From Planctomycetaceae bacterium (GTDB lineage: Bacteria; Planctomycetota; Planctomycetia; Planctomycetales; Planctomycetaceae), in NCBI GenBank assembly GCA_024742875.1, contig JANSXP010000064.1:1-40202 (forward strand): a stretch of DNA of 40,202 nt, read 5' to 3'. Below the pieces are notes generated by a model. That model worked only from the letters and a program-made list of their open reading frames with translations. It ran no database searches and was not told the DNA's origin. The translations under genes and the position numbers were made by a program. Shown piece after piece: positions 7,067-38,352 of the stretch. The first letter of the stretch is position 1. Each line of letters opens with the position of its first letter.

Positions 7067-9379
7067 TTAGTCTTCCAGCAGACTCCACACCCGAACGGTG
7101 GTGCGGTTGCGGCCCCGGCCGGGAACGTCTTCACACGTGATGACACGCCCTCCTGTTTTTGACACCGCAAACGAATGCGTCTTTGTGACGCGAATTTGCT
7201 TCACCGTTTTTCCGGTTTGCGGATCCCAGGCGACGATAGCGCGCTGATCAGAACGTTCGTTGTCTCGCAGACTGACCAGGAATCGCCCCTGCTGCACGGC
7301 GACGGCACCCTGCTGCGACTGAACGGAAAAGGTGTGCCGCTGCAAAAGCTGACCCGACACGCGATCCCACACGACAGCCGTCTGTTCGGCATCAACGGCC
7401 ACCACAAGGGAATCGTCGCTGGTAAAGCTCACGGACTGCGGAACGAAGTTTTCCGCCGCGTAGCTGACAACGTCATCGGCATCGTTCAGGGAATGCACCT
7501 CGACATGCTTCTCTTCGCGTGCCACGAAGGCAACATGTGTGCCGGATGAACAAAAGGCGGGTTCATGGCCTTTCTTTCGCAGTCGCCGCTGACGTTCGCC
7601 CAGGGCATTGATCAGAAACAGACCGTTTGCCGTCTGCTGCACGACATCGCCGGTCGACGACACATCCAGCCGCGTGGGGATGGCAAAGCTCTCCTTCCAA
7701 ACGGCGCGTCCGTCGCTCAGGCGGAATTTTGCCAGGTCGTCATTGATCTTCCCGTAGACGAACTTTCCGTCATCTGAAGGCACCAGGTAACCGTTGATCC
7801 GCGGGCCATGCACAGGCAGGGTCTTCTCAACCGATCCATCCTCAAGGTTCCAGACCCGGAGTTGCGAATCCAGGGAAACCGTGACACCCCGTTCCTCAGA
7901 CAGCAGACAGATGCCCCGTACCCCTGCAGCGTGAGCCAGCAGACTTCTGAACGCTGGATACTCCTGTTTGTCAAATCCGGAGTCCGTCCGTTCAATCTCA
8001 ACGCTGGCGGCATCCGTCAGTTGCTGAACAGACACCAGATCCACGTCGCCTTCGACCTCAATCCGTTTTTCCGTGCCATCACGAAATCGGATCACAATGA
8101 TGACTCCCAGCAGCAACAACAGCCCTCCGAAGCCCGCCAGACGGATGGCCGGCCGGGGTTTCACTGGAGGCCTGTCATCAAAGCAGAAAGGTTCCAGCAT
8201 GCGGGCGACCTGCGCGGCGCTTGAGGGTCGCCGATCCGGCTCGCAGTCCATCATCAGCCGGACGATGTGCGCAAGTTCACGAGGCACGTCCGGTCGAAGC
8301 GTGCGGACATCCGGTCGCGACCGGGTCGCGTGTGCCAGCAGTTTCTGAGAGGCCGTTGATTCGTCCGGCCCGCAGAACGGAGGACGTCCGGAGAGCAGCG
8401 CGAACAGCGTGCAGCCCAGCGCGTAAATATCGGAACGCGCATCGACGGCCTGTGTGTCTCGGCCCTGTTCGGGCGCCAGATAATCAAGCGACCCCAGAAT
8501 CACGGTTCTGTCAGTTTCACTGCCGTCGCAGGCTGTCGTCTCCGATTCATGCACCAGTCCCAGGTCGAGCACCCGCACATGTCCCTTTGAATCCACCATG
8601 AGATTGGACGGCTTCACGTCGCGGTGCACCAGTCCTGCCTCATGCGCGGCCTGGAGACCAAGGGCGGCCTGACGCGTCACATCGCACGCATTTTTGACTG
8701 GCAGTAAACGCGCCCCCTTTTTCTCTGCACCGTCAGCCGCTGGAATGGAAGTCCGAAGATACGTCCCCAGGTCCACTCCCCGCAGAAGTTCCATCACCAG
8801 ATAGGGCCGACCGTCGACTTCCCCGGCATCATGCGCCTGGACAAGATGTGGATGAGAGAGCCGCCCGACCGCCCGCATTTCGCGTTCAAAACGCGCGACA
8901 GGTGCCAACGGAGCGGCAGGGCGGACCACTTTCACGGCAACTTCCCGATTCAGCCTGATGTGGCGAGCGCGGTAAACCACCCCCATGCCGCCACGGCCAA
9001 TTTCCTCAAACACTTCGTAACCGGGAATCCGCAATACAGGCAGGTGCCTGGACTCCTCTGACGGCCAGCAGGCGGACACGTTTTCGCCCGCGGTATCCAG
9101 TGTCGGTTCTGCGAGCGTTGTGCGCTGGCGATCGCGCACAGCATCAGTAGGCGCCGCGTGGCCTGCTGCCCGCACGCGGTCCCAGATGCGACGCTGCCCC
9201 GCGGACAGGCTGTCTTCTGCATCGAACGCTGTCATTGCCTCCAGTCGCTGCTGACAGCGATCGCAGGTCTCCACATGCTCCACCATTTCGCTGACGTGGT
9301 CGCCCGTCTGACCGTGCAGAATACGCGACAGAGTCGAATCCCCGGGGCACGTGGCTTTGCGTTCTGTGACGGACATCAT
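7067..9379 (-). CDS. Transmembrane Ser/Thr protein kinase with N-terminal zinc-finger and WD40-like domain
   Basis: This 770-residue membrane kinase has four parts. Residues 35-42 hold an H-x3-C-x2-C motif like the zinc-binding anti-sigma fold. Residues 121-395 are a Hanks-type kinase with glycine loop GRGGMG (128-133), Lys150, Glu167, HRDVKPSN (252-259), DLG in place of DFG (272-274) and APEQ (302-305). A single transmembrane helix spans about 412-431. The last 320 residues contain repeats such as VRVWSLLED, VAVDAEQTAVVWD and LRVWNLEDG, resembling a WD40/quinoprotein propeller placed outside the membrane. It starts five bases after the stop of the sigma-factor gene, with AGGAAG inside that gene serving as ribosome binding site, so the two form an operon. 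The kinase probably controls its partner sigma factor. Confidence 0.92.
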   Translation of the reverse strand: MMSVTERKATCPGDSTLSRILHGQTGDHVSEMVEHVETCDRCQQRLEAMTAFDAEDSLSAGQRRIWDRVRAAGHAAPTDAVRDRQRTTLAEPTLDTAGENVSACWPSEESRHLPVLRIPGYEVFEEIGRGGMGVVYRARHIRLNREVAVKVVRPAAPLAPVARFEREMRAVGRLSHPHLVQAHDAGEVDGRPYLVMELLRGVDLGTYLRTSIPAADGAEKKGARLLPVKNACDVTRQAALGLQAAHEAGLVHRDVKPSNLMVDSKGHVRVLDLGLVHESETTACDGSETDRTVILGSLDYLAPEQGRDTQAVDARSDIYALGCTLFALLSGRPPFCGPDESTASQKLLAHATRSRPDVRTLRPDVPRELAHIVRLMMDCEPDRRPSSAAQVARMLEPFCFDDRPPVKPRPAIRLAGFGGLLLLLGVIIVIRFRDGTEKRIEVEGDVDLVSVQQLTDAASVEIERTDSGFDKQEYPAFRSLLAHAAGVRGICLLSEERGVTVSLDSQLRVWNLEDGSVEKTLPVHGPRINGYLVPSDDGKFVYGKINDDLAKFRLSDGRAVWKESFAIPTRLDVSSTGDVVQQTANGLFLINALGERQRRLRKKGHEPAFCSSGTHVAFVAREEKHVEVHSLNDADDVVSYAAENFVPQSVSFTSDDSLVVAVDAEQTAVVWDRVSGQLLQRHTFSVQSQQGAVAVQQGRFLVSLRDNERSDQRAIVAWDPQTGKTVKQIRVTKTHSFAVSKTGGRVITCEDVPGRGRNRTTVRVWSLLED

Positions 9380-22479: not shown

Positions 22480-24018
22480 ATGCCTTCACCGGCTGACAAG
22501 CGATTCGTCAGAACAACGTCGGCTCAAACGCAGCCCACCGCAGCACCGCCGACCGTTCGGCGACCGATTGGGCAATGCCGTTACCTGCGAGAAGAGCCAA
22601 AGTCGCAACAGGAAACACTGCGGCGCAGCAGCCAGTCTGATTCCGCTACACCAACCGTCGAATCAACCGTCGAATCAACCGCAGATGCGAGCGATCCCCC
22701 GCCGTCCGCAAACCAGTCTCTCGCCCCACCTCCTGCACAATCCCCGGACGACTCATTTCTTACTAAGGACCAGCTGACGGCACTCCGGCTGCCAAACAGA
22801 GAATCGCCTGACGTCAATGCCCCGTCCGCTTCCGATGCCGATCGGCAACGTGCCCGCGGACTTTGTGGCAGTCATGGTCACAGTCGCATTCCTGCCGGCG
22901 AATCGCATAAGACAGACAGGTCGTCCGGGCACAGCGGCCACGCTTCTGCCATCGACGACAGCGCAGACCGTGAGCGAACGCCCGTCATCACCGCCTCACA
23001 GCCCCGGCTATTGCCAGCTCCTCTGCAGTCCGGCGTGGTGCAGGGCGTCTTCGCAGCAGACCTTCGCACAGCGGCCGCTCAGCTGGCAGACGACATCGTC
23101 GCCGAACAGCGAAGAGTCGTCATCTGCCAGCTCAACGATCCGCCGGCACACACGCGGCTGCTGGATTGTCTGGCTCAGGAACTGGCGCAGGCGGCGCTGC
23201 TGCTCTGGCCGGACTGGTACGGTCCACACGTCCAGCTGTCTGAGGAGTCCGCCACCACCAGAGTCACGACAGACAGCAACCTGAAGACGCTGCTGAATGC
23301 CCAGGTGCGTGTGGACGCCGCCTGGTTTCGCCGCGCCTCACTGCTGGCCAATCGCAGCCAGAGGCCCTGTGTGCCCGACACCTCGGTTACACGACAGGTC
23401 CGCGAACTGGCGGCCTGCCTTCGATACGAAGACATCTGCATCATTGTCACCATCGCCCTGCCGGCCGCTGAGGACCATCGACTGCACACCATCCTGCAGG
23501 CGCTGGAGTGGCTGGCCCGCGAAACGGACGCCCCCGTCGTCGCAGTGACCGCAGAAAACGCTGTACCGGCGGACTGCCAGGTGCCCTTTCATCCCATCAC
23601 CGCACCTGAATCGGCGGCAGTACCTGTCGAGGAAGAGTTTCGCCAGCGAATCCTGCCATTTGTGGGACGCCCCCATCCCTACAGTCCGGGAGAACGGCAA
23701 CTGGCCGCCGCTCTGGCCACAGACCATGAACTCACCGGCCTGTTTGAATTCAACCAGCCGATCACAGTCGCATCAGGAAGTCGCTTTGTCGTGGACCTGC
23801 TGTGGTCGCAGGGAAAAGTGGTCGTGGAAGTGGATGGCTACAGCAACCACTCTCACCCGGAAATGTTCTGCAGCGATCGCCATCGCGATTACGAGCTGCT
23901 GATTTCTGATTACGCCGTGCTGCGGGTGCCGCACACGGACGTCATCAACAACGTGGAAGCTGTGATGCAAAAAATTCGCCAGGTGGTCCGCTGGCGCAGC
24001 AAAGGAGAAACAACGTGA
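22480..24018 (+). CDS. PD-(D/E)XK nuclease, DUF559/Vsr-like C-terminal domain
   Basis: The 512-residue frame has two parts. Residues 1-175 are Pro/Ser/Thr-rich with no fold, and include two near-perfect 12-bp tandem units (22653-22676, encoding VEST repeats). Residues 176-385 look folded but unassigned (RLLDCLAQELAQAALLLWPDWYG; ICIIVTIALP). Residues about 388-500 form a DUF559/Vsr-like endonuclease domain: Glu405 in SPGERQL, Asp439 in FVVDLLW, Glu450-x-Asp452 in VVVEVDGYSNH, then RDYELLISDYAVLRVPH. This matches the E...D...ExD/K order of PD-(D/E)XK enzymes, although the last position is Asp rather than Lys. The start is uncertain: the ATG at 22480 has no ribosome binding site, and a start near 23011-23038 is possible. 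Its TGA overlaps the GTG of the next gene, so it is translationally coupled to a possible defence operon. Confidence 0.75.
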   Translation: MPSPADKRFVRTTSAQTQPTAAPPTVRRPIGQCRYLREEPKSQQETLRRSSQSDSATPTVESTVESTADASDPPPSANQSLAPPPAQSPDDSFLTKDQLTALRLPNRESPDVNAPSASDADRQRARGLCGSHGHSRIPAGESHKTDRSSGHSGHASAIDDSADRERTPVITASQPRLLPAPLQSGVVQGVFAADLRTAAAQLADDIVAEQRRVVICQLNDPPAHTRLLDCLAQELAQAALLLWPDWYGPHVQLSEESATTRVTTDSNLKTLLNAQVRVDAAWFRRASLLANRSQRPCVPDTSVTRQVRELAACLRYEDICIIVTIALPAAEDHRLHTILQALEWLARETDAPVVAVTAENAVPADCQVPFHPITAPESAAVPVEEEFRQRILPFVGRPHPYSPGERQLAAALATDHELTGLFEFNQPITVASGSRFVVDLLWSQGKVVVEVDGYSNHSHPEMFCSDRHRDYELLISDYAVLRVPHTDVINNVEAVMQKIRQVVRWRSKGETT

Positions 24019-24677
24019 TTGAAAGCGAACTGGAATCGCAGCAGCAACTGCTGCTGTGGCTGCTGATGGTTAGTGACGACGGGGGCATGTTCCTGACTGA
24101 CGTAAAATTGTCGTTCGAATCCGCCGCAAAGCGGACCGCGCTGATGCGGCAGGGGCTGACGGAAGAAGCAAAGCGAAAACGCGCCACAACCAATCGCGAC
24201 GCCACCTACATTGAACTGACGGAGAAAGGCTGGGCCTGGTGTCAGGATCACCTCGGCACACCTCTGCAGAGCAAATCTCCGATGGTGGCTGTGGTGCTTA
24301 ATCGTCTGCGCGAGATCCTTAGAAAATTTTTTCGACAGCAGAACCACTGCAGTTCCATCGGGGAACTGGTGCTGATTTCCAGCCAGGCGCCCACTGAAGA
24401 GCGCGAACATGATCTGCAGGAAATCATCGAGCAGGAGTGTCTGAAAGCCGGCGGCGGGCGTGAAAACGTCCGCGTGCGTCTGGCCGAACTGCGCCCTCGC
24501 CTTTCGCAGTTCACGCGGCAGGCCGTCGACGACGAACTGCTGGCCCTGGAACGCACGGGCCGGCTCAGCATCTGGCGTCTGAACGACCCCACAGAAATCA
24601 CGGCCGCGGACAGGGAAGCGGCCATCGTCTCCGGCGGACGACCCAATCACATTGTGTACTACGGAGAAAACTCATGA
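24015..24677 (+). CDS. Winged-helix-like hypothetical protein of the nuclease/ATPase operon
   Basis: I do not recognise this 220-residue family. It starts at a GTG that overlaps the previous stop, with AAAGGAG seven bases upstream, which is a strong ribosome binding site. Residues about 8-80 look like a winged helix: QQQLLLWLLMVSDDGG, then AAKRTALMRQGLTEEAKRK and the wing-like TYIELTEKGWAWCQDHL. Residues 85-120 are helical and basic (VVLNRLREILRKFFRQ). The C-terminal half has alternating helices (FTRQAVDDELLALERTGRLSIWRLN) and a second possible winged helix. A role as DNA-binding or bridging subunit between the nuclease and the large ATPase is inferred from gene order and size. Its TGA overlaps the ATG of the ATPase gene. 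Confidence 0.8.
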   Translation: MIESELESQQQLLLWLLMVSDDGGMFLTDVKLSFESAAKRTALMRQGLTEEAKRKRATTNRDATYIELTEKGWAWCQDHLGTPLQSKSPMVAVVLNRLREILRKFFRQQNHCSSIGELVLISSQAPTEEREHDLQEIIEQECLKAGGGRENVRVRLAELRPRLSQFTRQAVDDELLALERTGRLSIWRLNDPTEITAADREAAIVSGGRPNHIVYYGENS

Positions 24678-27600
24678 GCACGACCACCCAAACAGATGCT
24701 GCACTGGACGCGATCCGACACATCGACTTCGACTGGTGTGTGCGGTTGAGCGACGTCTGGCTGGATGCCCCCGGTGATGTCGCATCGCTGCACAGCCATC
24801 AGCGAAAACGACTGTGCGAACATCTGGATAACCTGCTAAGCCAAACCGCCTCCCCGTTCTCCCTGCCAATCATCGGCGAGGGAGGCTCAGGCAAAACTCA
24901 CCTGCTGAGTTTTCTGCGTCAGCAGCCCCTCAAACGGAATGCCACGTTTGTGCTGGTCGACATGACCGACGTGCAGGATTTCTGGGTGACTACGCTGCAG
25001 GGCTACGTAGATTCGTTGCAGCACAACCTTGGCGAGCACGATCAGCAGTCTTTGATCCTGCAGAGATTCCTTGGTAAAGCCTCAAAGGATGCCGTCGAAG
25101 AAACGCTGGGCAAGCTCAAAGGCTACACGCCCGCACGGCTGAAAAAGAACATCAACAATGTAATCAAAGGCCTGGCGGAAACGACAAGCCGCCAGCTGGT
25201 CCTGCGACATCAGGATGTCATTCGCGCCATCTGCTGCCTGAACTCGGACAACTTTGAAACACAGAGTATCGGTCTGACATGGCTGCAGGGACAGGAACTG
25301 GAAGCAGCGCAAAAGCGAGCGCTGGGATTTCAGACAAAGTCCGAGAGCTGCCGACACATTGTCCAGGGACTCAGCTGGTTCATTAGCCTGACCGGCCCGA
25401 CGGTGGTGGCCTTTGATCAGCTGGACCCCATTGTCCACCAGACATTTCATCAGTCGACAGCGCGGCTGCAGGAGCAGGAAGCAGCCCGCAGCATTGTGCA
25501 GGACATCGGCAACGGCTTTGCCACCCTGCGGGAACTCGCCTGGACATGGCCGGTGGTCAGCTGCATCGAAAGCACGTGGGCGCGTCTCACTGACACTGTC
25601 ATGCAGGCACTGACCGACCGGTTTGATTCACCGCAACGACTGCTCAATGCCGACGACAGCGTGGCCCAGCGGCTCATCAAGCGCCGCCTGAAGACGGCGT
25701 TTGACCGATCCGGTTTCCAGGCCCCCCATGACACCTGGCCGTTTGAGCCCGACGCGCTGAGCCGACTGGACGCAAAAACTCCCCGAGAGTTGCTGCAGGG
25801 ATGCCACAAAGAATGCCAAAACATGCTCACCCAGCAGCAGGTCTGGGAGGTGGCTCACTTTGGCGAAACAACGACACCGATCAACACTCCGATCGACGTT
25901 GCCCAACTGGACGAGCAATTCGAACACCTTCGTATTGCCACCACAGTGGACGAATATCTGGACGAGCGTCAGGAGGACCAGCAGTTGGCCCCGCTGCTGG
26001 TCACCGCTATTCGCGCTTTGCTGGTCGAACGAGCCCAGCAGATTCCCAGTTCCATCACCCCCGTCATTGACGAACAGTTTTCCGGCAATACCAACGCGGT
26101 GCCGCTGCATGCTCGCCTGCGTCTGATCTTTCACGACGAGAACGAACGCGAAGAACACTACAGCCTGCGATCTCTGCAGCGTTCCAATCCCATGGCGTTT
26201 CAGAACCGGCTGCGAGCGGCAATAAACCATGCGGGCATCAGCGATGACCTCAGTTTCCGACATTTGACCATCCTCCGCAGCGGCCCGGTTCCCAGCGGAC
26301 CAGTGACTGCCACACTGAAGGACACTCTCGAGCATGCCGGCGGGCGGATTCATGAGTTGACAGACGAAGAAGTTCAGGTCCTGGTCGCGGTGAACATCAT
26401 GTTCGAAGACAAAGATCCGCTGCTGGAGGCGTGGCTCAAACAGCGTCGGCCGATTTCCTCACTGGCAGAGTTCGTCCGCTGCCTGTTTCACGGCTCTGTG
26501 CTCGCAGAACCGTCTGATATTCCCCCGCCCGATCACGAACCTGTCAAAACTGAAGTCACCAGCACCGAGATCATGAACACCACACAAACCGACGATGAAT
26601 CAATCGACGAGAGACACACGGATATCGAAGACCTCGAACCGGAACCGCTCACGATCCCTCTCGGGCGGACGATCGATCGATCGCGTTCAGAAGACCTGAT
26701 TCGCCTGCCAATCGCCAATCTGGCAAGGCACACCATGATCATGGGGGCTTCCGGGTCCGGCAAATCCGTTACTGTTCGAAGGCTCGTGGAAGGAGCCGCC
26801 CTGGCCGGTATTCCTTCTGTGATCATCGACGGAGCAGGGGATATGTGCACATTCGAGCAGCCGCGCTCCACCGCCTCGCCTCACTGGCTGTACGGCGACG
26901 ACTCGCAGGCAAAGCGATTTCACAAAGTCACGGAACAGGTGATCTACACGCCCGGTGCCCGCAGCGGGCGTCCGCTGTCCCTGACTCTGATACCGGACTT
27001 CGTGGCTCTGCGAGACAACCAGGAAGTTCTGGCCACCACGATCGATATGGTGGTGGCCTCCATCACTGAACTGGCTGCCACAGGCACGAAAGAAAAGATC
27101 AGCAAAAAAAGTGCGATCCTGGCGGGCGCTGTAACGGAGTTTGCCCGAACGGCCAAAGAGTGTAGTCTGTCGTCGTTCATTGATTTTCTGTGCGACGTCC
27201 CGGAAAGAGCCAGGCTGAATATCCAGCGAGAAGATCAGCTGTGCCGTGAAGTCATTGACTGCCTGAAGATTCAGCAGGTCCAAAACCCACTGCTGCGACA
27301 CGGCGGTGAAGCACTCGATCCCCATCAACTCTTCTCTCCGACAGCAACCGGCAGAACGCCGGTCACCGCCATCAGCATGGCTGGACTTCCCGAGCAGTCT
27401 CAGCGCTGCACATTTGTCAATCAGCTGGCCATGCTGCTGTTCCGCTGGCTGAAAGCGAATCCCACGCCCAAAGAGAATCGGCCGCTGCACGGATTACTGG
27501 TGATTGACGAGGCGCGGGATTTTGTGCCGTCAGGCAAAGACTCCGCCTGCAAAGAGAGCATGCGGACACTCGCCGCTCAGGCCCGAAAATATGGGCTGGG

Positions 27601-27889
27601 CCTTGTCCTGGCCACGCAGCACCCCAAAGATGTCGATACGAAAATCGTGGGCAACTGCGGCACGCAGATGTACGGACGGATGGGCAGCCCGGCTTCCCTG
27701 AATGCGGCCAAAGAATTCCTCGGAATGCTGGGACTAAAACACCCAAAAATCGCAGATCTGACGGCGGGACAGTTTTGGGTGCACTCCGCAGATGGCAGCG
27801 AAGGGGCACGCTTGCTGCAGTTCCCCGAGTCTCTGTCACAGCCGTCAACACTAACGGCTGACGAAATCCTGTCGAAGTCTGCGAGGTAA
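24674..27889 (+). CDS. Dual P-loop ATPase: AAA/ORC-like N-terminal half fused to HerA/VirB4-like C-terminal half
   Basis: The 1071-residue protein contains two separate nucleotide-binding modules. The N-terminal one (about 20-400) has Walker A GEGGSGKTH at 68-76 and a Walker B-like VVAFDQLD near 245, followed by helices with RLIKRRLKTAFDRSGF and DALSRLDAKTPRELLQGCHKEC, recalling ORC/STAND-type AAA proteins. A Glu/Asp/Thr-rich linker lies near 610-660. The C-terminal module (about 665-1040) has GASGSGKSVTVRRLVEGA, then SVIIDGAGDM, Walker B GLLVIDEARDF near 939-949, and LVLATQHPKDVD, which is the pattern of HerA/FtsK/VirB4-type DNA pumps. A good ribosome binding site (GGAG, seven bases away) precedes the ATG, which overlaps the upstream stop. 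A DNA-translocating motor working with the nuclease is the simplest reading. Confidence 0.88.
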   Translation: MSTTTQTDAALDAIRHIDFDWCVRLSDVWLDAPGDVASLHSHQRKRLCEHLDNLLSQTASPFSLPIIGEGGSGKTHLLSFLRQQPLKRNATFVLVDMTDVQDFWVTTLQGYVDSLQHNLGEHDQQSLILQRFLGKASKDAVEETLGKLKGYTPARLKKNINNVIKGLAETTSRQLVLRHQDVIRAICCLNSDNFETQSIGLTWLQGQELEAAQKRALGFQTKSESCRHIVQGLSWFISLTGPTVVAFDQLDPIVHQTFHQSTARLQEQEAARSIVQDIGNGFATLRELAWTWPVVSCIESTWARLTDTVMQALTDRFDSPQRLLNADDSVAQRLIKRRLKTAFDRSGFQAPHDTWPFEPDALSRLDAKTPRELLQGCHKECQNMLTQQQVWEVAHFGETTTPINTPIDVAQLDEQFEHLRIATTVDEYLDERQEDQQLAPLLVTAIRALLVERAQQIPSSITPVIDEQFSGNTNAVPLHARLRLIFHDENEREEHYSLRSLQRSNPMAFQNRLRAAINHAGISDDLSFRHLTILRSGPVPSGPVTATLKDTLEHAGGRIHELTDEEVQVLVAVNIMFEDKDPLLEAWLKQRRPISSLAEFVRCLFHGSVLAEPSDIPPPDHEPVKTEVTSTEIMNTTQTDDESIDERHTDIEDLEPEPLTIPLGRTIDRSRSEDLIRLPIANLARHTMIMGASGSGKSVTVRRLVEGAALAGIPSVIIDGAGDMCTFEQPRSTASPHWLYGDDSQAKRFHKVTEQVIYTPGARSGRPLSLTLIPDFVALRDNQEVLATTIDMVVASITELAATGTKEKISKKSAILAGAVTEFARTAKECSLSSFIDFLCDVPERARLNIQREDQLCREVIDCLKIQQVQNPLLRHGGEALDPHQLFSPTATGRTPVTAISMAGLPEQSQRCTFVNQLAMLLFRWLKANPTPKENRPLHGLLVIDEARDFVPSGKDSACKESMRTLAAQARKYGLGLVLATQHPKDVDTKIVGNCGTQMYGRMGSPASLNAAKEFLGMLGLKHPKIADLTAGQFWVHSADGSEGARLLQFPESLSQPSTLTADEILSKSAR

Positions 27890-33051: not shown

Positions 33052-35460
<2,409 letters not shown>

Positions 35461-35628: not shown

Positions 35629-38352
35629 TTACTTCCCCTGTGAGTCGTCAGCAGGTGGGGACGGGGCTTCCTCTTCCTGTCCGTCGGACGAGTAATGCCT
35701 GAGCAATGCCTGTGTGGTTCGCAGGTCCGCCTCCGCAGCTGCTGCGGCCTGTTCCGTTTCACTCACCTGTGTGGCATCAGCGTCTCCCATCTCAAACCGC
35801 TGCCGGGCGATATCATGCAGTTGTCGGTGCAGGGCAATTCTCTCCTTCACCGAATCCAGATAAGTCTGCAGGACCTTCCGGGCAAACTCGGCGTCGCTTT
35901 TGGGATCTGACTCCGCAGTGCCGATCCTGTTGTAGTAATTGAGCAGCAGTTGCAGCTGCTGCAGAGTCGCGGACGCGTCAGCGACACCCAGTTCACGTTC
36001 CATCAGGTCCGTGACCGGAGATTGTCCCAGCCGGCGTTGCTGCTCAGCCTGCTGTCGCATGGTCTTCTGCCAGCCGTATCGCTCCCTGGCGGCATTCAGC
36101 TGTGTCTCGAGAATAGAAATTGCGGTGGCCCGGTCACGGCTGTTTTCCACCTGAGCGGAAGTCTGCGTCTGCGGATTGGCCCCATCAAGCCCCTTGGGAA
36201 ACAACTGCCGCATTCGTCGCCCCAGTGACAGGGCCGTTTCAATGGCGCTGGACACTGCCAGGGCCGAAGCCGGTTGACCGGGAATGCCGGCGATGTCCTG
36301 TGGTCGAAAAACGTCTGACGCGACCTGCGTCACAGACGAGGATTCCTGCACTGGCTGTGGAGCGATATTGCCTCGCGAAACGGGCGCGGATTGCTGTGTG
36401 CTGATGTAACACACCACATCGCCTGTTTTCAAAATCTGCAGTCCACTGAGCTGCGTCAGAACGCCGTCCATGGGCGCCACAATTGAGTAGGACTGCTGCC
36501 GCGCTAGTTTGATTTTTGTCTCCTCCAGTTCCTTTCGGGCTTTTGCCAGATTGGCCTGCGAGGAGGACACAGTGCTTTCCGCTTCCGCGAGGCTGGCCGC
36601 GTCGTCGAACACTTTCGCCTTCGCGTCGGCGATGTCTGCTTCAAACTGCTGTCGTCTGGCCAGAGATTCGCTCTTCACTGCGGCGACCTTGATCTCGGCC
36701 GATTTGATAGCGGACACGGCTCCATCAACCTGAGCCTGCTGCTCGGCCAGCTGGCGTTCTGCCAGCTGAACTTTCAATTCCGAAACCACGGCCGACTCAA
36801 ACAGCTTCTGCTGCCGAGCCAGTTCTGTTTCACGCTGCTTCAGGACAGCGTTGATCGAATCCAGCTTTTTCTTCTCGACCTCCACTTTCTGCAGATGGGC
36901 GTCCAGCAGGTCCTGACTGGCCTGCTCCGACTGATTCTGACTGTCTTCCAGGGCGACCAGTCGAGACTTACTGAAGTCCAGTCTGTTGGTGACAGCTCTC
37001 ACCCGCGCTTCGGTCGCTTCCAGCGCTGACTGCATGGCCACCAGATTGGTTTCCTGCACCTGCGTCTGCGCCTCCAGCCGCTGCATCATGTTGGGATCCA
37101 CGTCGACAATCTGTGCAATCAACTGCCCCTTTTCGACCCGGGAATTTTCCACGATGCCTTCGCTCCAGCGTATGGCTCCTGCGATGGGAGACTGCAGGGC
37201 CTGCCGGCGACCCACGCGACGTTCCGGCGTGGCCACCGAAAGATCCGCAGGACCGGCGCCACGCTGCCAGATAAAGTCCCGCAGGCGAGGTGTTTCATCT
37301 GACACCGCTGAGTCAGCATCCACAGCCACGGCTCCGCTGATACGCCCCTCACGCATCCGCAGTGTGAGGGAGCCGGTCGCCGCGTCTCCCACTTTCCAGC
37401 GGCCCGTGAATCTCCGCTGCAGCCGCGACCATTCCAACTGCAACGCACCTTTGCGCCCCTGCTGGTCAACAAACGCCCCGCTGTACCAGCCGGCCGCATT
37501 TTCCACCGTCGAAAGCTCAACAGCGGGCCACGCTTCGCCGCCCCAGTTGCCCTGAATATCCGGAGGAGATGTCGCCTGCCAGACAACCAAAGCCAGCGCG
37601 ATGGTGGCGATACTTCCGAGAGCCGTCCTGCCCAGACGCAGGGATCCCAGCTTCTGAAAAACTCGTTGCAACAATGGCTGTGACTCTGCGGTCGCCGTGC
37701 CGCCGCGGTAGGCAGGTTCAGCCATTGCGCCGTGGGCAGGATCGGACGGCAAAGCGACCACTTCCGGCTGCTGCAGATGGGCCAGACACTGCTCCAGAAT
37801 CTGAGCCACTTCAGCCGCATCGGAAAATCGATCCACGGGATCCTTGGCCATCAGTCGCTCAATAATACGGCACAGCCACTGCGGGATCTCGGGATTAAGT
37901 TCGCGAATACTGCGCGGCTGAGTGTCCGTAATCCGACGCAGAATTCCCCAGGCCGCTTCGGCGCGAAACGGGGCGCGGCCCGTGCAGGCCGTATACAGCA
38001 CGCTGCCCATACTGAACAGGTCGCTGCTGGGACTGACGGATTCGCCGCGCGCCTGTTCGGGCGACATGTACTGCGGCGTACCGGCAATCACGCCCGTTTG
38101 TGTCATCGACGCATCATCGACCGCGCGAGCCACGCCAAAGTCTGTGATCCACAGACGTTCGATCCCCTCATTGAGCAGAATATTGGCCGGCTTGATATCC
38201 CGATGCACCAGTCCCTGTTCGTGAGCGGCCGCCAGACCGGCAGCAATCTGCCGGCCGATGCGGACCACTTCGACCGTGGCCAATGGTCCGCTTTCATCCA
38301 GTCGCTTCTGCAGCGACGGCCCCCTGGCAAACGGCATCACCAGATAGGGCAC
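35629..38352 (-). CDS. Ser/Thr kinase C-lobe + transmembrane helix + HlyD-like adaptor (C-terminal part of frameshifted gene)
   Basis: This 907-residue frame begins in the middle of a kinase domain: PYLVMPFARGPSLQKRL, HRDIKPAN (50-57), TDFG (70-73), SPEQARG. The first 45 residues continue the hinge of the upstream frame, so its GTG 'start' is not real. A membrane helix spans about 244-262. Next is a domain of about 110 residues (ALQLEWSRLQRRFTGRW). Then comes a HlyD/membrane-fusion-protein architecture: SPIAGAIRWSEGIVENSRVEKGQ (386-410), about 200 residues of coiled-coil, and a second lipoyl-like half, YSIVAPMDGVLTQLSGLQIL (about 619-638). The last 200 residues are long helices resembling TolC repeats (RFEMGDADATQVSETEQ). 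A kinase joined to a periplasmic adaptor is unusual. The gene belongs to the operon with the sigma factor. Confidence 0.85.
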   Translation of the reverse strand: MPYLVMPFARGPSLQKRLDESGPLATVEVVRIGRQIAAGLAAAHEQGLVHRDIKPANILLNEGIERLWITDFGVARAVDDASMTQTGVIAGTPQYMSPEQARGESVSPSSDLFSMGSVLYTACTGRAPFRAEAAWGILRRITDTQPRSIRELNPEIPQWLCRIIERLMAKDPVDRFSDAAEVAQILEQCLAHLQQPEVVALPSDPAHGAMAEPAYRGGTATAESQPLLQRVFQKLGSLRLGRTALGSIATIALALVVWQATSPPDIQGNWGGEAWPAVELSTVENAAGWYSGAFVDQQGRKGALQLEWSRLQRRFTGRWKVGDAATGSLTLRMREGRISGAVAVDADSAVSDETPRLRDFIWQRGAGPADLSVATPERRVGRRQALQSPIAGAIRWSEGIVENSRVEKGQLIAQIVDVDPNMMQRLEAQTQVQETNLVAMQSALEATEARVRAVTNRLDFSKSRLVALEDSQNQSEQASQDLLDAHLQKVEVEKKKLDSINAVLKQRETELARQQKLFESAVVSELKVQLAERQLAEQQAQVDGAVSAIKSAEIKVAAVKSESLARRQQFEADIADAKAKVFDDAASLAEAESTVSSSQANLAKARKELEETKIKLARQQSYSIVAPMDGVLTQLSGLQILKTGDVVCYISTQQSAPVSRGNIAPQPVQESSSVTQVASDVFRPQDIAGIPGQPASALAVSSAIETALSLGRRMRQLFPKGLDGANPQTQTSAQVENSRDRATAISILETQLNAARERYGWQKTMRQQAEQQRRLGQSPVTDLMERELGVADASATLQQLQLLLNYYNRIGTAESDPKSDAEFARKVLQTYLDSVKERIALHRQLHDIARQRFEMGDADATQVSETEQAAAAAEADLRTTQALLRHYSSDGQEEEAPSPPADDSQGK

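Follow-up and report, generated by a model that had tools for sequence, protein, structure and literature searches.

Among the described systems that join a HerA-type motor to a nuclease, the closest to the operon considered here is a predicted class, the ‘HerA/FtsK capture’ neighbourhoods. These combine an ORC/CDC6 ATPase, an inactive restriction endonuclease (REase), an active REase, a HerA/FtsK ATPase and a winged helix–turn–helix (wHTH) protein, in one or several polypeptides (Rakesh, Aravind and Krishnan 2024, PMC10853773). According to the main text of that paper, the inactive REase is inserted after the AAA+ core, the active REase comes from one of two families, and the HerA domain belongs to clade 2, 4 or 5 in the paper's tree; ORC is proposed to help localise the apparatus, and HerA/FtsK to intercept DNA. 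A second paper restates the HerA-capture theme and adds another HerA-centred system (PMC12839542). Here, we describe an operon of three genes, for a DUF559 nuclease, a probable winged-helix protein (WH) and a double ATPase, in a stretch of 40,202 nucleotides (‘the window’) from Planctomycetaceae bacterium (contig JANSXP010000064.1, assembly GCA_024742875.1). Because its gene and domain content fits the class as set out in the main text of PMC10853773, we provisionally place the operon, judged by its sequence, in that class, as a variant in which ORC, a probable inactive REase and HerA share a single chain and the nuclease is of the DUF559 type.

All three genes lie on the forward strand, at 22480–24018, 24015–24677 and 24674–27889, and each runs into the next. 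The GTG start of the WH gene (24015) overlaps the TGA stop of the nuclease gene (24016–24018), and the ATG start of the ATPase gene (24674) overlaps the TGA stop of the WH gene (24675–24677), so that the 4-base overlaps reported in a preliminary description of this DNA, GTGA and ATGA, are present as reported. So are the ribosome-binding sites that it placed inside the upstream genes: AAAGGAG (24001–24007, forward strand) within the nuclease gene and GGAG (24663–24666, forward strand) within the WH gene, each 7 bases from the start codon that follows.

This arrangement is not peculiar to the window. We assembled 95 loci (the window, three from plasmid records, 11 from relatives and 80 from a contig scan) and dropped three duplicates; the remaining 92 were picked by similarity of the ATPase, and are not a random sample. 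The gene caller places WH immediately upstream of the ATPase (position −1) in 89 of the 92; by a profile count they are same-strand neighbours in 91, the lone exception (L050) beginning inside the ATPase. A DUF559 nuclease lies upstream of WH (position −2) in 58 of the 92, and these trios come from five phyla. With starts as called, 78 of 89 loci show an overlap between WH and ATPase, and in 87 the two are no more than 30 bases apart; for nuclease and WH, the corresponding counts are 42 and 56 of 58. Homologues thus keep the order of the genes, and the recurring overlaps support the earlier claim of translational coupling. Since order and overlaps alike recur across phyla, the trio is a real unit and not a product of chance. 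Two loci carry more than one copy of its parts: in a planctomycete relative, a second, partial ATPase lies directly downstream of a complete one (L037:11408–13474, the same as L043:13471–15537), and a Rhodococcus contig holds a tandem pair of WH–ATPase pairs (L082:1128–9579).

The first protein had been called a DUF559/Vsr-like PD-(D/E)XK nuclease with four particular acidic residues, and this assignment holds. Its C-terminus matches DUF559 (Pfam, 5e-8), and Glu405, Asp439, Glu450 and Asp452 are invariant in all 47 aligned homologues. These 47 were drawn from the 49 nucleases of the window and the contig scan; left aside were L098, cut by a contig end, and L110, which is shortened. Nine nucleases from other sources stand outside this alignment, among the 12 rows of a separate one. 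In L110, a Methylobacterium copy, the nuclease match is spread over two frames (8238–9301), suggesting a frameshift or a sequencing error. A profile of the 47 matches the solved ‘Endonuclease-Like Protein’ 3hrl (E-value 1.3e-13). The catalytic domain (23692–23988, forward strand), delimited by Pfam, alignment, AlphaFold2 (AF2), PDB profile and Foldseek, has the element order alpha-beta-beta-beta-alpha-beta in the AF2 model (mean predicted local distance difference test score, pLDDT, 86.4), and resembles the homing nuclease I-Bth0305I (3r3p; Foldseek template-modelling (TM) score 0.75–0.78 of target, E 0.016–0.018). It is preceded by a conserved alpha/beta domain (23011–23691, forward strand; AF2 model, Foldseek and alignment), for which Foldseek returned no significant match: the candidates were mostly P-loop NTPases at TM scores of about 0.2, none of them at E 0.001. 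The 512-residue open reading frame first drawn for this gene, from the open reading frame list and Pfam (22480–24018, forward strand), exists; that 22480 is its true start is doubtful, homologues beginning near 23011. The only in-frame starts before 23035 are ATG 22480 and TTG 23011. Because residues 1–177 have no counterpart in 11 aligned homologues, and a codon-usage gene caller sets the start at 23011, the true start is uncertain and more likely lies near that TTG; the protein would then have 335 residues, with the four acidic residues numbered E228, D262, E273 and D275.

The second gene (24015–24677, forward strand) encodes 220 residues and, by sequence likeness, probably a winged-helix protein. 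Its description as ‘winged-helix-like’ is borne out in part: eight of 47 WH members weakly match the DUF6293_C winged-helix profile (best E 0.0012) and other helix–turn–helix (HTH) families are matched by one or two members each, but the window's own protein matches no winged-helix or HTH profile. When the WH profile was run against the PDB the top matches were to calmodulin, which we dismissed as noise.

The third protein, of 1071 residues (24674–27889, forward strand), does join an ORC/STAND-like AAA+ module to a HerA-like one, as had been proposed. In the first of these (24674–25858, forward strand; Pfam and alignment), residues ∼44–281 match Pfam AAA_22 (4e-11), AAA_16 (6e-9) and BrxC_BrxD (1.8e-8). 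The Pfam model named ORC-CDC6-like matches this module only at E 0.12, so its placement in that clade rests on the resemblance to BrxC/D. The module has a Walker A motif (G68–T75) and a Walker B-like motif, D248-Q249-x-D251, in which D248 is kept in 79 of 80 homologues, and Q249 and D251 in all 80. Walker B motifs usually have a catalytic Glu at the position held here by Gln249. The C-terminal, HerA/FtsK-like translocase module (26639–27886, forward strand; alignment and profile/structure matches) matches DUF87 (HerA) over residues ∼662–841 (Pfam, 7e-12). Its K697, D945-E946 (Walker B), R971 and Q982 are invariant in the 80 homologues, as are both Walker A lysines of the chain; residue 698 is Thr in 79 of the 80 and Ser in the window protein. 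The module matches solved HerA chains (PDB profile 5e-13, Foldseek 5e-14), among them chains of the Sir2-HerA and HerA-DUF4297 antiphage complexes (8wiv/8wld, 8xau, 9c1m and 8ziq).

Between these modules lie a middle alpha/beta domain (25886–26509, forward strand; AF2 secondary structure and alignment) and a linker (26510–26638, forward strand; AF2) that is disordered at residues 614–650 (pLDDT <50), in a model whose mean pLDDT is 89.5. In this model, the middle domain follows the order alpha-beta-beta-beta-alpha-beta, as in the REase fold; its strand 2 (residues 480–486) carries no conserved acid, and strand 3 contains E493-x-H495. We regard it as a probable inactive REase, a view that sequence searches neither support nor exclude, for the domain has no sequence match in the PDB and no profile match. 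Profile comparison found no relation between this domain and the nuclease, nor between the nuclease and the ATPase.

Across phyla, the system is patchily distributed. Among 148 genomes, that of the window included, 21 contain an ATPase match at 1e-30, and in 12 (again including the window) it spans the whole chain; full-length matches thus occur in 11 of 147 relatives, two of them in two pieces. None of the seven congeners matches at E 1e-30, and 16 of 60 genomes in one mycobacterial genus hold the ATPase. A profile scan of GTDB contigs confirmed at least 470 relatives at E 1e-3, counting partial matches, and the best 80 of these were kept for locus analysis. The analysed loci belong to the Planctomycetota, Actinomycetota, Pseudomonadota, Cyanobacteriota and Thermodesulfobacteriota. 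A scan of genome contigs with the single ATPase sequence found no relative, but an alignment-based scan of the same contigs did; a megablast search of E. coli, uninformative at such distance, gave no match.

What might such a machine do? We put at roughly 0.6 the probability that the operon is an accessory restriction system directed against invaders. In outline, the three proteins would form one complex; the ORC-like module, helped by the WH subunit, would load on particular DNA, the HerA module would translocate that DNA, and cutting would fall to the DUF559 nuclease as a passenger of the complex. The target would be invading DNA. The N-terminal AAA module, with its invariant Gln, might work chiefly as a clamp or switch that holds ATP, leaving HerA as the motor. 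We favour this reading because the order of the trio is conserved, the nuclease and HerA motifs are invariant and the distribution is patchy; because the HerA module matches antiphage complexes, and the class predicted in the main text of PMC10853773 has the same domain set; and because defence matches lie beside the system, and a candidate defence gene, PDC-M02, takes the nuclease's place in seven loci. The clamp-like N-terminal ATPase and the detachable effector are additions that we infer to the proposal as given in that main text.

The defence context supports this reading modestly, and several other observations weigh against it. Among the system's immediate neighbours, of which 125 of 252 were sampled, matches at E 1e-15 were to AbiU (three), LmuB (at least two), LmuC, PDC-M28B and WYL (one each), but also to mad3 (two) and an amino-acid transporter model (one). 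Genes farther away (125 of 306 sampled) matched none of AbiU, LmuB, LmuC, PDC-M28B or WYL; they did match mad3 (three), an RtcR/CARF-type model and PDC-S03 (one each). The contrast between near and far is therefore modest, since farther genes also match PADLOC models, and mad3 and the transporter model match nearby as well. The AbiU association amounts to few independent cases because the three loci concerned (L085, L086 and L119) sit in one group of the tree. Proximity to defence genes, which the preliminary description had proposed as a check, is seen beside the system in some sampled loci but not in the window, where a Pfam scan of 10 of the 22 other called genes turned up no defence gene. 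No relative was found in a scan of viral contigs or in phage records.

A further difficulty is that the nuclease is often absent. At position −2, seven of the 92 loci have PDC-M02B instead (two, L060 and L058, scored by PADLOC, the remainder placed by BLAST cluster), 20–49 bases upstream of WH and with PDC-M02A beyond it in six; 27 have neither. Four of the 27 are contigs cut upstream (L047, L050, L071 and L114), and the other 23 are informative loci with a WH–ATPase pair and no linked DUF559 nuclease or PDC-M02. We searched 20 of these 23 genomes with the nuclease profile (L039, L040 and L057 fell outside the search; both positive controls matched). Three have a full-length match elsewhere (L075, L104 and L119); of the other 17, 13 contain partial matches, mostly C-terminal, and four nothing at 1e-8. 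Because these 17 genomes lack a full-length nuclease elsewhere, the WH–ATPase core evidently persists without one, a persistence that a simple restriction model leaves unaccounted for. PDC-M02, for its part, also occurs apart from the core: in a sample of 249 genomes from an actinobacterial order, none of 14 PDC-M02B loci has WH or ATPase in the 9 kb examined.

A tentative extension, possible but well short of probable, would accommodate these loci. It sees a widespread, uncatalogued and modular immune core, WH–(ORC–inactive REase–HerA), whose large chain would hold one ATPase impaired in hydrolysis and another that is active. Different effectors (DUF559 or PDC-M02AB upstream, AbiU downstream) would be joined to this core and could be lost from it; the bare core, found in mycobacteria and others, would act as a non-cutting, DNA-capturing defence. 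On an ATPase tree of 91 rows, built by a quick method under a simple model and without the short L050, the three upstream-gene labels take a minimum of 10 changes, compared with 27.0 on average when shuffled. The PDC-M02 label needs two, which means that it sits at two places, and the tree cannot separate gain from loss. As a true exchangeable effector PDC-M02 is weakened by the absence of co-occurrence in the 14 loci, where the genes behind it vary; in plasmid records nothing matches PDC-M02B. In L146, a different large protein of 989 residues lies 47 bases downstream of PDC-M02AB, a hint of several large partners. Another effector may be the AbiU-type gene directly behind the ATPase (−4 to 19 bases) in three related actinobacterial loci without the nuclease (L085:13120–13620, L086:13104–14825 and L119:13122–14840); the L086 gene matches PADLOC AbiU (1.6e-110), and those of L119 and L085 are its relatives at 80% and 78% identity. 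Other genes abut the pair too. In two Mycolicibacterium loci (L116:13092–13589 and L120:13110–13604), a gene follows a nuclease-less pair by 7 bases, a Macro-domain protein in L116 and its cluster mate in L120; and in L118 (Actinophytocola), a ParA/CATASP-type gene at position −2 (PADLOC PDC-M28B, 1.8e-29) ends 9 bases before WH.

Loci without a nuclease, mycobacterial ones included, would also suit a machine for DNA end-processing or repair, in which the motor, as in archaeal NurA-HerA, feeds broken ends to a nuclease during recombination; and in structure the ATPase chain is most like HerA-NurA of T. kodakarensis (9x1m). We nevertheless think this unlikely. Core repair functions are not expected to be scattered within one genus, or missing from all seven congeners, as this system is; the nuclease is a DUF559 protein and not NurA; and cellular HerA carries a HAS barrel ahead of its core, where here there is a disordered linker. 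About equally improbable, in our estimation, is a role in plasmid or conjugation interference, or in plasmid maintenance, with ORC–HerA gripping DNA as it segregates or transfers and phages not the main target. The HerA/FtsK modules of such systems have been proposed to intercept DNA in just these processes (PMC10853773, main text), and TrwB (1e9s), a coupling protein of conjugation, is among the matches of the operon's own module. Fifteen plasmid records match the ATPase, three of them along 80% or more of its length, and one of the three is a 1.57-Mb Methylobacterium plasmid record with a full-length homologue. The other two full-length matches may be chromosomal, however (one record is 11.8 Mb long, the other includes ribosomal protein genes), and no conjugation family occurs among the 10 scanned neighbours in the window.

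Poorer still are the prospects for a mobile-element reading, in which the operon would target and cut DNA so that its own element can insert, rather than for defence. An ORC-like ATPase with a nuclease does recall TnsC and TnsA of Tn7-type elements. Yet among the 40 largest clusters of neighbouring genes, compared by position and not annotated for transposases, none besides the system itself and PDC-M02 keeps a fixed position in more than four loci, so no additional gene travels with the trio. In an empty-site comparison, four of the seven congeners retain the left flank of the operon, with its DUF1592- and DUF1552-type genes; the right-flank gene is found in none of the seven at E 1e-60, and no right-flank gene comes after the left flank, so that no clean insertion can be demonstrated. 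Elsewhere, in Tsukamurella, Rhodococcus and Williamsia, the system stands beside ribosomal protein genes (L028, L082, L092, L095, L107, L109 and L115), with rplN in all seven loci and rpsQ in five, possibly an insertion hotspot in a ribosomal operon. Downstream of the operon in the window are peroxidase-family and protein-kinase genes (33052–35403 and 35629–38352), with no link to defence that we could see.

If the restriction reading is right, the operon would be a compact and testable representative of a class that, in the sources we found, has been described from sequence alone, with loader, motor and nuclease contained in three genes and spread over five phyla. The nuclease-less loci would offer a natural experiment on whether DNA capture by itself protects, and the trio would add a model missing from the defence catalogues used (PADLOC-DB 2023, Pfam and NCBIfam).

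None of these three catalogues has a model that names the trio, and to that extent the earlier statement that it matches no known system stands; it does not extend to the class predicted in the main text of PMC10853773. Our literature search returned no matching paper on DUF559 with HerA/DUF87 defence or on PDC-M02, an unlisted mention being impossible to exclude, and the text examined of PMC7159879 holds no matching trio. HerA-DUF4297, Sir2-HerA and NurA-HerA share with the operon a HerA-type motor paired with a partner enzyme. The partner differs, Pfam listing no DUF4297, Sir2 or NurA family on the three proteins, and in the operon HerA shares its chain with an ORC-like module, while WH adds a third subunit. 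DndFGH, too, combines a HerA/FtsK module (the DndH C-domain, 7es4; Foldseek 3.1e-9) with a nuclease-bearing system, but PADLOC DndH matches only at E 0.001, in the HerA part, and no DndF or DndG model matched. MADS is a multi-gene mad set with a methyltransferase. The HerA module resembles its mad8 (PADLOC, 1.2e-21), yet no other MADS-like gene belongs to the conserved unit, and the scanned window genes include no methyltransferase. BREX shares the BrxC_BrxD-like AAA+ module (1.8e-8), to which the operon adds a C-terminal HerA instead, and neither PglZ nor a methyltransferase was found on the three proteins or among those same neighbours. PDC-M02, a PADLOC candidate, meets the operon only where PDC-M02B occupies the DUF559 place. 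The ‘HerA/FtsK capture’ class remains the nearest relative. Judged from its main text, in which neither DUF559 nor planctomycetes are named, two of six points of membership agree (the ORC/CDC6-type AAA+ and the HerA/FtsK modules). On three more the operon shows a likeness of less certain standing: a REase with invariant catalytic residues, a probable wHTH protein recognised by weak matches in a minority of its members, and a middle domain, lying after the AAA+ module and before HerA, that is probably an inactive REase.

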